Source: an uncultured Octadecabacter sp.
Lineage (GTDB): Bacteria; Pseudomonadota; Alphaproteobacteria; Rhodobacterales; Rhodobacteraceae
Reading direction: 5' to 3'
Assembly: GCA_937891785.1 (NCBI GenBank)
Contig: CALAGN010000040.1
Location: 62,001-126,000, forward strand
DNA: 64,000 nt
Positions 5,929 to 49,318 of this stretch are shown in pieces; the first letter of the stretch is position 1, and every line of letters begins with the position of its first letter. The notes beneath the pieces are model-generated. The model saw only the letters and a list, made by a program, of their open reading frames with translations. It was not told the DNA's origin and did no database searches. A program made the position numbers and the translations under genes.

Positions 5929-7958
5929 CGCCATATCCACGCATAGCTGGCCAGTGCACCTTGGGCCTTGGCAAGCAGTCGATTGGCGCGGCTTGGGCGT
6001 GGCACGTCGCCACTGGACAGTCGGTCAACGACCACCTCGACGGGGCAGGGCAGCCCGGTCTTGGGATCAAAATAGCGTGGATAATCAATAAGAACTGCAT
6101 GTGCGAGGGCGGTAATGTCAGGCCGTGCGACGCGGCGGGCGATAGGTGCTGCGCGGTCGTCTGTCAGCCCCCATCCGGCGTAAAATGGCGTACCAAGACA
6201 GGTCACACGTTTGCCACGTAACAGCGCCTCAAAGCCCAAGGTGGAGGTGATCGTCCAGACCTCGTCAACCGCGTCAAGTGCTGCGATCGGGTCAGTGCGG
6301 CTCAGCACGGCATCAGCGATGTCACCCGCATCTGGAACGGCCCCGATCCGCAAGCCCGCTTCAACATCTGGGTGGGGTTTGTACAGGATCACGGCGGCGG
6401 GATTGGCGGTGCGGGCTGCCAACAGCAGGTCACGATTGCCGCGCACTTCGCCCGCGCCAAGCCGGATTGATGCGTCGTCTTCGACCTGTCCGGGAACCAG
6501 AATGCGCCGTCCGGCAGGCAGGTCTGCGGGCAGGTTTGCATTTGCGGAAAGGTTGTATTTGCTTAGTCGATCTTGCGTCAGGCGCGTGATCAGGCGGTCG
6601 GCGCGCGCGCGGGCGCTGTCTGGCAGATCGCTGCTGTCGTTGATCAGTTGTTCCAACCGGCTGGGGCCGGTCGGATCATAGTAAATCCCGATGTCGTCAC
6701 AAACCAAGCTGAGCGGTGCGACCAGATCAGCACCAAGCCCGCGCGAGCGCAAGAAACCGTCCTCGACCCGCACCGCGCCGTCATGATCTGCGGATTCGCT
6801 GGCCCAAACCATATGGCCACGCCCGTCTTTGACAGCGCGTACCACGGCGTTCACCCGATCATCGCTAAAGATAATTTTGCGCTGGCGGCCAAATGCCATC
6901 TGCAGTGGCGCGCGCTTCCAAAGGCGCATGCCGGACGCAACCCAGCCCATGTGATCTTCGCGCCATGCGCGGGACTGGGCGGCCAATGATAGGATCGCCG
7001 TTTCAAGCGAGCAAAGCTGGTCGCGATAGGGGTCATACCAAGTGGGATAGAGGATCATCGCGGCGGCAAAAAGCTGCGCGCGGGTCAGATTGCGCTGGCG
7101 TCGGTCAAGTGGTTTGCGATCGTCACTCAGGCCCCAGCCGATATAGAAGGGCTGGCCGAAAACCACCGGCTTATGGCCCATCTGGATCGCCTCGAACCCC
7201 ATTTGCGAGGACACGGTGTAGACCGCCACGGCCCCTTCGAACAATGCCCATGGCGAAATCGGGTCTTGCAGCAGCGACACGCGGTCGCCGGTATCGTCTG
7301 CTGTGAAATACCCGCTGCGATGCCCGCCTTGGGTTTCGGGGTGGGTTTTGATGACGATCCGCGCGGCTGGGTGTTCTTCTTGCGCGTAATAAAGCATCTC
7401 GCGGAAGGTATTCAGATCGGCGCCGCTTGCGGTGACGGATGCATCGCCACGGGTCTGATCGATCACCACCACATAGCCGGGATCGAGGGCAGGCGTGGCA
7501 GGATCAAAGGCGTTGTATTTGGATAGGTGCAGGCGTTTGAGGTCTGCCATGCAATCGCGCGCGCGGTTCAGCAGTGCTGTGTCATCAAGCGGGTTATCGC
7601 GCAGGATCAGTTCCAGATCGCTGGGGGTGGTGGGGTCGAAATGCACGCCGCTTTTGTCCAGATGCAGCCCGATTGGAGGTTCGCCATCACGGCCCGGCAA
7701 GACCGAGCGCAGAAAGGCATCCTCGATTCGTAGAATGGGGGCGGCGGTGCGGGTGGCGACAGCCTCGCCGCGCCCCGATGTGGGCGATTGCCCCCAAACG
7801 CCGATCATGTCGCCGTCGCGCGGTTTGCCAAGCCGGATGTCATAGCCTGCGAGTTTCAGGATGCGCCGCACGCGGATCTGGGTCAGGAAACCACCGCTAT
7901 AGACGTAAAGACGCCGCAGGGTTTCCCCCGCGGCGGCCTGTGTTTCATGATCGCTCAT
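5925..7958 (-). CDS. kpsC: Capsular polysaccharide biosynthesis protein, KpsC family (duplicated beta-Kdo transferase-type domains)
   Basis: 677 aa with two related halves (VEDGFLRSRGLGADLVAPLSLVCDDIGIYYDPTGPSRLE / IEDAFLRSVLPGRDGEPPIGLHLDKSGVHFDPTTPSDLE), typical of KpsC. Confidence 0.85.
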   Translation of the reverse strand: MSDHETQAAAGETLRRLYVYSGGFLTQIRVRRILKLAGYDIRLGKPRDGDMIGVWGQSPTSGRGEAVATRTAAPILRIEDAFLRSVLPGRDGEPPIGLHLDKSGVHFDPTTPSDLELILRDNPLDDTALLNRARDCMADLKRLHLSKYNAFDPATPALDPGYVVVIDQTRGDASVTASGADLNTFREMLYYAQEEHPAARIVIKTHPETQGGHRSGYFTADDTGDRVSLLQDPISPWALFEGAVAVYTVSSQMGFEAIQMGHKPVVFGQPFYIGWGLSDDRKPLDRRQRNLTRAQLFAAAMILYPTWYDPYRDQLCSLETAILSLAAQSRAWREDHMGWVASGMRLWKRAPLQMAFGRQRKIIFSDDRVNAVVRAVKDGRGHMVWASESADHDGAVRVEDGFLRSRGLGADLVAPLSLVCDDIGIYYDPTGPSRLEQLINDSSDLPDSARARADRLITRLTQDRLSKYNLSANANLPADLPAGRRILVPGQVEDDASIRLGAGEVRGNRDLLLAARTANPAAVILYKPHPDVEAGLRIGAVPDAGDIADAVLSRTDPIAALDAVDEVWTITSTLGFEALLRGKRVTCLGTPFYAGWGLTDDRAAPIARRVARPDITALAHAVLIDYPRYFDPKTGLPCPVEVVVDRLSSGDVPRPSRANRLLAKAQGALASYAWIWR

Positions 7959-30608: not shown

Positions 30609-31595
30609 ATGAACAAAGTCATCCGCTGGGGTATTCTGGGCGCGTCGAAATTTGCCCGTGAACAGATGGGGCCAGCGATCCATTCGGCCCGTGGCGCCCA
30701 GCTTGTGGCGTTGGCCAGTGGATCACCTGACAAGGCGCAGGCGTTTGTCGACATCGTGCCCGGCTTGCGTGTCTACGCTGATTATGACGCGCTGCTGGCC
30801 GATCCAGACATTGATGCAGTCTATATCCCGCTTCCCAACCACTTGCATGTGCAGTGGTCCAAACGCGCGTTGAACGCGGGCAAACATGTGCTGTGCGAAA
30901 AGCCGATTGCGATGGCTGCGGACGAGATTGATGATCTGATCGCACTGCGTGACAAAACCGGCCTGCACATCGCCGAAGCCTTTATGATTGTGCATCATCG
31001 GCAATGGCAGCGCGCCCGTGAATTGGTGCAAACCGGCGCGATTGGCACCCTGATGCATGTCGAGGGGACGTTCGCCTATAACAACGCGGGCGACATGGCA
31101 AACGTACGACAAAAACCGGAATTTGGCGGCGGCGGCATCCCCGATATTGGCGTCTATACCTACGGCGCGACGCGCTGGGTGACAGGGCAAGAGCCCGTGG
31201 CGATCACCCATGCTGATCTGACCTTTGAAAACGGCGTAGACGTGGTGGCGCGGGTGTCGGCGCGGTTCGATGGGTTCAGTGCCCATTGGGTCAATTCGAT
31301 GCGGATGCACCCCTTGCAGGACATGGCGTTTATCGGCGATCAGGGCATCGTAAAGCTGACAGCGCCGTTTAATCCGCAACGCTTTGGCGAAGCGCGGGTG
31401 GAATTGCATCAAAATGGAATGGCTGTGCGGGTTGAACGCTTTCCGGCTGACAACCATTATATCAATCAAGTGGAGGCTTTTGGTGAGACGGTGCGCAGTG
31501 GCGCGCAATACGCATGGCCGCTGGAACAGGCGCGCGGCACGCAGGCGATGATCGACGCGGTGTTCGCCAAAGCGCGCGAGGGAGAAAACGCATGA
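30609..31595 (+). CDS. Gfo/Idh/MocA family oxidoreductase
   Basis: VIRWGILGASKFAREQMGPAI...DAVYIPLPNHLHVQWSKRALNAGKHVLCEKPIA. Confidence 0.93.
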   Translation: MNKVIRWGILGASKFAREQMGPAIHSARGAQLVALASGSPDKAQAFVDIVPGLRVYADYDALLADPDIDAVYIPLPNHLHVQWSKRALNAGKHVLCEKPIAMAADEIDDLIALRDKTGLHIAEAFMIVHHRQWQRARELVQTGAIGTLMHVEGTFAYNNAGDMANVRQKPEFGGGGIPDIGVYTYGATRWVTGQEPVAITHADLTFENGVDVVARVSARFDGFSAHWVNSMRMHPLQDMAFIGDQGIVKLTAPFNPQRFGEARVELHQNGMAVRVERFPADNHYINQVEAFGETVRSGAQYAWPLEQARGTQAMIDAVFAKAREGENA

Positions 31596-31858
31596 ACAAC
31601 GAAAATGAACCCGATTATGAAAGCCTATGGATGCGTTTGGTCTGGATGATCCTGATCGCCGTGATGTTGTCTATGTCACATACCGTGCTAGGCGTGATCA
31701 CCGTGCTACAATTCATCATCATGGTGTTCAACAAACGCGAACCCAATGAAACGCTGGCAGAATTTGGCACGACCTTGGGCGTGTGGATGGCCAAAGCGGT
31801 GCGTTATCAAACCGCGGCGAGTGAGGTGAAACCTTGGCCGTGGACGGAATTGGATTAA
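31592..31858 (+). CDS. DUF4389-family membrane protein
   Basis: MNNENEPDYESLWMRLVWMILIAVMLSMSHTVLGVITVLQFIIMVFNKREPNETLAEFGTTLGVWMAKAVRYQTAASEVKPWPWTELD. Confidence 0.75.
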   Translation: MNNENEPDYESLWMRLVWMILIAVMLSMSHTVLGVITVLQFIIMVFNKREPNETLAEFGTTLGVWMAKAVRYQTAASEVKPWPWTELD

Positions 31859-31869
31859 TTGGTTTCCGC

Positions 31870-31919
31870 GTGCGGTGTAGCAATTTTGCGCCGCAATTAA
31901 GCGGGCCGCACCCTGCTAC
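31870..31919. ncRNA. Candidate structured element (H-type pseudoknot) between convergent genes
   Basis: GTGCGG(31870-31875)/CCGCAC(31906-31911) crossed by GTAGCA(31877-31882)/TGCTAC(31914-31919), both exact 6-bp complements; shares GCGGTGTAGC[A/G]ATTTT with the metZ leader. Confidence 0.4.
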
Positions 31920-32025
31920 TATGCGCTCGCCTGGCCAGCATCAAGTATAGTGGGATTGACCCCATGGGGAGGGCGCTAAAGCACCCACCCCGAGGCCTAG
32001 GCGCGGACAATTTGCACGCGCTGGA

Positions 32026-33837
32026 TCACTCCTCCAGCGCTTCCAATTCGTCAATGAACCCTTCGATCATGCTCAGCCCTTTGTCCCAGAATGCAGGGTC
32101 GCTGGCATCCAAGCCGAAGGGGGCCAGCAATTCCTTGTGGTGCTTTGATCCGCCCGCTTTGAGCATGTCGAAGTATTTGTCTTTGAAGCTTTCACCAGAT
32201 TCTTCGTAGACCGCATAGAGCGCGTTCACGAGGCCGTCGCCGAAAGCATAGGCGTAGACGTAGAACGGTGAGTGGACGAAGTGCGGGATGTAGGCCCAGA
32301 AGCGTTCATAGCCTTCGGCGTATTCGAACACGGGGCCAAGGCTTTCGGCCTGCACGGACATCCAGAGCGCGTTGATATCGTCGGGGGTCAGTTCGCCCTG
32401 CGCGCGCGCGGCATGGAGTTTGCATTCAAAGTCGTAGAACGCGATTTGGCGCACGACGGTGTTGATCATGTCTTCGACCTTGCCCGCCAGAAGGACTTTG
32501 CGTTCGTCTTTGTCGGCAGCGTTTTCCAGCAATTCGCGGAAAGTGAGCATTTCACCGAACACCGAGGCAGTTTCGGCCAATGTGAGCGGTGTTGAGGACA
32601 GCAATTCGCCCTGACCTGCAGCCAGAACCTGATGCACACCGTGGCCCAGCTCATGCGCCAGCGTCATCACGTCACGCGGTTTGCCCATGTAGTTAAGCAT
32701 CACGTAGGGGTGCACGGTGGTCACGGTGGGGTGCGCAAATGCGCCCGGTGCCTTGCCCGGTTTCACGCCTGCGTCGATCCAGCCTTTGTCAAAGAACGGC
32801 CGCGCCAATTCGGCCATGCGCGGATCAAACGCGCCGTAGGCTGACATGACCGTGGCGCGGGCTTCGTCCCAATCCACAAGTCGTTCGCTTTCCATCGGAA
32901 GGGGCGCGTTACGGTCCCAGACCTGCATCGTGTCAAGACCTAACCACTTGGCTTTCAAGGCATAATATCGGTGCGACAGGCGTGGATAGGCGGCGACAAC
33001 GGCGTTGCGCAATGCCTCGACGACTTCGGGTTCGACGTGGTTGGCAAGGTGGCGGCCGGTTTGCGGTGTTGGCATGCCGCGCCAGCGATCCTCGATCTCT
33101 TTTTCCTTGGCCAGCGTGTTGTGCACGCGCGCGAAGGTCGGCAGGTGTTCGCCAAAAACGCGGGCAATTTCGCGCATCGCGGCTTCGCGTTTGCTGCGGT
33201 CTTGTTCGGTCAGCAGGTTCAACGCGCCTTCGATGTTCAGCTCTTCGCCGTCCAGATCGAACGTTAGCGCTGCTATGGTTTCATCAAACAGGCGGTTCCA
33301 TGCGGCGGCGCCCACGGTAGATTGATCGTGCAGGAATTTCTCAAGTTCGTCGGAAAGCTGATAGGGGCGCATCGCGCGCATCCGATCAAAGACCGGCTTG
33401 TAGCGCGCAAGATCAGCGTTTTCAGAGAGGCGTGCATCGACGTGCGCGTCTTCGAGGCGGTTAAATTCAAGGCCGTAAAACACCATCGGCGTTGTATAAG
33501 CGGTGATCTTATCTTGCATGTCAGACATGAATTTTGCGCGCTCGGCGTCGGTGGTGGCCTGATAATAGCGCAGACCCGCGAACGACATGAGCCGCCCCGC
33601 GATCACGTCGATTTTTTCGTACCGCAGCACGGCTTCAAGAAGGTCGTCGGCATCAAGGTCAGCCAGTTTCCCTTCGAAATCGCGGGCGAAATCGAGGCAG
33701 GCCTGTTCGATCCAGTCCATGTCGCGTTTCAACTCGGGGGCGTCCGTGGCGGCGTAAAGGTCGCTCAGATCCCACTCGGGCAGGTCGCCAAAGGCGTTGG
33801 CGCCGGATGCAGTCGCGTCATAGGTCGGAGTTTTCAT
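32026..33837 (-). CDS. pepF: M3 family oligoendopeptidase F
   Basis: MTLAHELGHGVHQVLAAGQGELLSSTPLTLAETASVFGEM zinc motif HELGH...; 600+ aa. Confidence 0.93.
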   Translation of the reverse strand: MKTPTYDATASGANAFGDLPEWDLSDLYAATDAPELKRDMDWIEQACLDFARDFEGKLADLDADDLLEAVLRYEKIDVIAGRLMSFAGLRYYQATTDAERAKFMSDMQDKITAYTTPMVFYGLEFNRLEDAHVDARLSENADLARYKPVFDRMRAMRPYQLSDELEKFLHDQSTVGAAAWNRLFDETIAALTFDLDGEELNIEGALNLLTEQDRSKREAAMREIARVFGEHLPTFARVHNTLAKEKEIEDRWRGMPTPQTGRHLANHVEPEVVEALRNAVVAAYPRLSHRYYALKAKWLGLDTMQVWDRNAPLPMESERLVDWDEARATVMSAYGAFDPRMAELARPFFDKGWIDAGVKPGKAPGAFAHPTVTTVHPYVMLNYMGKPRDVMTLAHELGHGVHQVLAAGQGELLSSTPLTLAETASVFGEMLTFRELLENAADKDERKVLLAGKVEDMINTVVRQIAFYDFECKLHAARAQGELTPDDINALWMSVQAESLGPVFEYAEGYERFWAYIPHFVHSPFYVYAYAFGDGLVNALYAVYEESGESFKDKYFDMLKAGGSKHHKELLAPFGLDASDPAFWDKGLSMIEGFIDELEALEE

Positions 33838-49178: not shown

Positions 49179-49212
49179 GGTGTTCTTGACCCCAAGCTGC
49201 GCTGGGCGTAAT

Positions 49213-49275
49213 GACGCGGTGTAGCGATTTTTTTACCGGATTGCGGGCCACTTTAAACAAGCCGCTAAAAGGGTG
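49213..49275 (+). promoter_or_regulatory. SAM-II (SAM_alpha) riboswitch upstream of metZ
   Basis: GCGGTGTAGCGATTTTTTTACCGGATTGCGGGCCACTTTAAACAAGCCGCTAAAAGGG; the GATTT...CCGG.TTGC..GCCAC.TTAAACAA.(C)CGCTAAA core matches the SAM-II pattern and sits before a methionine gene. Confidence 0.72.
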
Positions 49276-49287
49276 AGGGATGAACAG

Positions 49288-49318
49288 CCCGATACCTGCG
49301 CCGGTGTCGGGTTTTTTT
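49288..49318 (+). terminator. Intrinsic terminator in the metZ leader
   Basis: CCCGATACC-TGCGCC-GGTGTCGGG-TTTTTTT between riboswitch and the metZ start. Confidence 0.85.

Follow-up and report, generated by a model that had tools for sequence, protein, structure and literature searches.

Between the gene for a DUF4389 protein and pepF lies a short sequence whose letters can pair exactly in two different ways. Is it a pseudoknot related to the SAM-II riboswitch, or a structure of another kind? It was analysed within a 64-kb stretch of DNA, referred to here as the window. DUF4389 ends at 31858 and pepF at 32026 on the opposite strand, so the region is convergent, as the sequence-only reading had described it. 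That reading placed two interleaved helices in the gap, GTGCGG (31870-75) with CCGCAC (31906-11) and GTAGCA with TGCTAC, both of which are located correctly and exactly complementary. Besides the pseudoknot topology it offered three explanations: a decayed or re-purposed riboswitch, a 3'-UTR small RNA, or a member of an intergenic repeat family. The last was right. With a probability of about 0.7, we regard the sequence as a decaying copy from a family of REP-like extragenic palindromes which in Rhodobacteraceae follow stop codons directly and for the most part have the sense orientation. It may also give rise to a 3'-UTR-derived small RNA. The features of the locus are given in Table 1.

Table 1. 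Features at the convergent ends of DUF4389 and pepF (window coordinates).
Feature	Position	Strand	Remarks
DUF4389 gene (Pfam PF14333)	31592-31858	+	3' end carries the element
TAA stop codon of DUF4389 gene	31856-31858	+	
Upstream hairpin HP1	31845-31868	+	imperfect inverted repeat, 15 nt, 73% complementary, spans the stop codon
Element core, models R1/R2	31868-31916	+	57.7 / 49 bits; family model giving 57.7 bits built with this copy included
Outer stem, 5' strand GTGCGGT	31870-31876	+	
Inner stem region	31880-31902	+	2 + 4 bp with AATT/TTAA mismatch block; decayed
Outer stem, 3' strand GCCGCAC	31905-31911	+	
Second helix of the sequence-only reading, GTAGCA/TGCTAC	31877-82 with 31914-19 (31877-31919)	+	
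Dispersed palindrome on the pepF side	31960-32004	-	CCTCGGGGTGGGTGC TTTA GCGCCCTCCCCATGGGG
Inverted repeat across the pepF stop codon	32006-32052	-	32006-32025/32033-32052, 20 nt, 80%

The pseudoknot and the resemblance to SAM-II

Exact interleaved helices of 6 + 6 bp occur 18 times in the window, against an average of about 13 over 20 dinucleotide shuffles, so the arrangement is at chance level. Nor is it a property of the family to which the element belongs. The second helix was found in only 2 of 108 distinct copies, both from the window's own genus, where 1.2 would be expected; the conservation looked for in it is therefore missing. When the 108 distinct cores were folded singly, 107 gave one nested hairpin with 12 bp or more; only the window copy did not. 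In the sister species (G001) a helix of 6 bp is retained, shifted by one position, and the pseudoknot helix may be a rearrangement specific to the genus.

The link to SAM-II had been drawn from a motif common to the element and the metZ leader. GCGGTGTAGCRATTTT is indeed present both at 31872 and at 49216, but the coincidence amounts to no more than chance: independent pairs of 16-mers with at most one mismatch number 169 in the window, against 82-89 in three shuffles. A scan with Rfam gave SAM_alpha at 49211-49289 with 42.1 bits, which is the metZ leader, and the covariance model concerned, RF00521, matched there and not at the element. Among 25 SAM-II leaders compared from Rhodobacteraceae, GGTGTAGC occurs in one, that of the window itself. 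In the sister species the leader has ACGCGATGTGGCGATTTG at the equivalent place, which implies that the similarity arose by chance in the metZ leader of the window's lineage. SAM-II ancestry of the element was therefore rejected, as there is no match to RF00521 and the similarity is missing from the sister leader. Of the suggestion of a decayed riboswitch, the decay stands for the window copy and the SAM-II riboswitch does not. An H-type pseudoknot or re-purposed SAM-II riboswitch at 31870-31919, which would account for the two exact helices of the window copy and the shifted helix of its sister, is thus extremely improbable in view of the chance-level frequency, the 2 of 108 copies and the RF00521 result. 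Separately, the 42.1 bits of the metZ leader compare with 57 in the sister species and two of its P1 pairs are mismatched; the leader may have been weakened.

Searches for related copies

BLASTN recovered two further copies: one in the sister species, syntenic behind DUF4389 and 79% identical, and another in G158, where synteny is lacking. A strict pattern was then scanned against one genome per species in 84,980 species, giving 30 loci. Eight of them, labelled Rhodobacteraceae, Paracoccaceae, Loktanella, Rhodobacter or Aliiroseovarius, have one and the same 41-nt core with the inner stem; the matches listed from other groups are of scattered lengths or lack the inner stem, and all those with both features are from Rhodobacteraceae. 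The first covariance model (R1), built from ten copies and run with search filters that lose weak matches, found the element in at least 50 of 397 Rhodobacteraceae genomes at E<=0.01. A further model (R2) based on 70 copies was run on 40 genomes mostly picked as carriers and matched in 38. One or two copies per genome are typical, the highest numbers being 12 (G360), 10 (G036) and 9 (G339). Near-identical cores with different flanks occur within G360. The window's own genome, searched for further copies, contains a single one, and blastn against a plasmid collection gave no match. Tandem copies spaced by about 69-131 bp were seen at L147, L117, L216 and L224, behind rnr, ettA, lepA and another gene.

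No family in Rfam 15 scored above its gathering score at the element. The best match of a strong member reached 23.9 bits (E 0.0027) against a gathering score of 70, and its weak matches correspond to a neighbouring terminator hairpin, leaving the core at 6836-6884 untouched. Literature searches on rplP combined with Rhodobacter small RNAs and on Rhodobacteraceae extragenic palindromes, covering mostly non-subscription papers, yielded no description, and the element is not described in two surveys of Rhodobacterales sRNAs. It is a member of an uncatalogued family of hairpin elements behind stop codons in Rhodobacteraceae, contained in no Rfam family.

Structure of the core

The core is nested. 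An outer stem of 7 bp, GTGCGGT/GCCGCAC, is followed by a small internal loop, an inner stem of 10 bp with a three-base loop, and the tail CCCGGT. Compensatory changes, called for as a check on the pseudoknot, support the nested stem instead. With ten copies in a plain MAFFT alignment, pairing holds in 94.7% of the cells, and the test of the same structure gave 20 compensatory cells compared with 7.3 after shuffling. With 70 copies all 17 pairs changed on both sides (169 cells vs 34), an alignment which is biased because it was fitted to the model. RNAalifold, supplied with no structure beforehand and with 56 copies plainly aligned by MAFFT, also arrived at the nested form: it recovered the inner stem together with some of the outer one, with compensatory changes in 10 of 11 pairs.

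The inner stem is free in sequence and keeps its pairing; there is almost no variation at the A of the internal loop or at the G and C beside it. GTAG is found in the internal-loop region of 36 of the 108 copies and is not constant, and inspection of the alignment shows no constant CGTC end. At L109, L133 and L143 a downstream CTGGGTG is able to pair with the tail CACCCGG, so that some subtypes could form this helix instead of the outer stem.

The window copy departs from this pattern. Taken alone its sequence folds with ordinary stability relative to shuffles (z -0.3), and with the upstream hairpin included z is -1.0. What places it beyond chance is the score of 57.7 bits against the family model, in the building of which it was included, together with the syntenic copy in the sister species. 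In the sister species the upstream hairpin, HP1, is intact with 10 bp and the inner stem has 8 bp, where most family members have 10 bp; in the window copy HP1 has 8 pairs, with mismatches, and of the inner stem only 2 + 4 bp are left. On these grounds the copy behind DUF4389 is best read as decaying, and it probably has little activity now.

Gene contexts

A stop codon in the sense orientation lies 2-56 nt upstream of 77 of the 108 copies. An antisense stop lies near the 3' side of 20, of which 11 have both. These placements are approximate, since genes were called by codon-position composition, and copies at orthologous genes are not independent. The most frequent site is the gap between rplP, encoding ribosomal protein L16, and rpmC, with 42 copies; others lie behind lepA in seven genera, ettA in at least five and infA in three, and further ones behind valS, rnr, bchY, nrdJ, ABC transporter genes and others. 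The element is absent behind rplP in the window's own genus, where other hairpins are found, and from the rplP 3' end in several further genomes. An intrinsic terminator follows 28 of the 42 rplP copies and 1 of the 66 elsewhere.

Extra copies in the reverse orientation are situated about 30 nt 5' of a gene for a 2OG-Fe(II) oxygenase (TIGR02466/PF13759). In many relatives this gene lies within the rplP-rpmC gap with the reversed element on its 5' side (L115, L126, L062, L092, L131). At L095, L145, L200 and L227 the copy faces the 3' end of an oppositely oriented gene for a vitamin B12-dependent ribonucleotide reductase, an identification made by NCBIfam at L145 only.

Translation genes dominate the recurrent contexts, and this, with the near-invariant internal loop and an inner stem conserved in pairing alone, is what would be expected of a conserved 3'-UTR RNA motif. 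A protein binding the internal loop of the core would then coordinate rplP, lepA, ettA and infA, the other copies being secondary. Many copies, however, lie behind unrelated genes such as bchY, nrdJ and the ABC transporters, some of them reversed, and several genomes have none behind rplP. On balance we doubt this explanation.

The upstream hairpin and inverted gene ends

HP1 precedes the core and varies in sequence between loci. Its stem crosses the stop codon in many copies and is an inverted copy of the last codons of the gene. It may be long: 17 bp at L223, where the double hairpin has z -10.8, and about 16 bp at L161. Stop-spanning inverted repeats with a score of at least 12 were found at 18 of 77 genes with the element compared with 7 of 427 control genes; five of those seven are duplicate element loci, leaving 2 of 422 (about 0.5%). 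The copied C-terminal codons, such as those for REDW of rplP and ALKMD of lepA, are conserved protein ends, from which we infer that the downstream arm of HP1 is the derived one. Quasi-palindrome correction or fold-back synthesis would explain the perfection of HP1; selection for a hairpin at the stop codon would also favour it.

The end of pepF has the same arrangement as that of the facing DUF4389 gene, but with a different palindrome core, other copies of which occur elsewhere in the window's own genome and in relatives (contigs 56 and 130 of G000, G001 and G025). A more elaborate scheme would have fold-back write the inverted last codons beside a dispersed core, the product being retained as a regulon of translation-gene 3' ends tuning termination or mRNA decay, with pepF as a second such system. 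We consider this unlikely.

Possible action and comparison with known systems

An intact copy has HP1 abutting or spanning the stop codon with the core hairpin adjacent, and presumably the transcribed mRNA would have this structure at its 3' end. If it acts as REPs do, its stable structure might slow 3'-to-5' decay or affect termination at the stop codon. Stalling of translation has been reported for REPs very near a stop codon. REPs have been described as located close to 3' ends and transcribed as RNA (PMC3733652), and the stability of E. coli mRNAs that carry them has been studied (PMC10100675). By analogy, an effect on mRNA 3'-end stability appears the most likely, although we put it forward tentatively; one at translation termination comes next and is rather doubtful. 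Against the REP-like reading count the few terminators outside rplP (1 of 66), a copy number far below that of classical REPs and the presence of GTAG in only 36 of 108 copies. The reversed copies 5' of the TIGR02466 gene are also unexplained by a pure sense 3'-UTR role.

A typical REP would be mobilised by a REP-associated tyrosine transposase (RAYT). A RAYT gene (NF047646) does adjoin the copies at L138, behind ettA, and at L161, behind lepA, and placement at stop codons is as for REPs (PMC3733652). Of the roughly 26 RAYT loci inspected, however, only 2 have the element; RAYT genes were found in 28 of 50 carrier genomes and not in the window's own, and the GTAG tag is not constant. Mobilisation by RAYT is accordingly quite improbable.

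Two observations give the family its wider interest. A structured element directly behind rplP, in the main ribosomal-protein cluster, recurs over many genera of the well-studied Rhodobacteraceae and has no Rfam family; and gene ends inverted across their stop codons raise the question of how such palindromes originate and whether they influence mRNA decay or translation termination.

The likeness to SAM-II (RF00521) is confined to a 16-nt stretch, differing at one position, in the metZ leader of this genome. The element has neither a match to that model nor the TTAAACAA/CGCTAAA core, there is no downstream gene for it to control, and it is nested where SAM-II is pseudoknotted. With REPs of the GTAG/CGTC superfamilies (Di Nocera et al. 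2013, PMC3733652) it has more in common: both are short extragenic palindromes placed near the 3' end of the gene upstream, transcription is plausible for both, and both sometimes occur in tandem or inverted pairs. Unlike REPs, the element lacks a constant unpaired GTAG tag, has a two-tier stem with an internal loop, occurs in 1-12 copies per genome in those searched permissively rather than at high copy number, and carries a locus-specific second hairpin, often across the stop codon. A stable hairpin behind a stop codon also recalls an intrinsic terminator, but no U-run directly follows the core, and at rplP a separate terminator comes after it in 28 of 42 copies.
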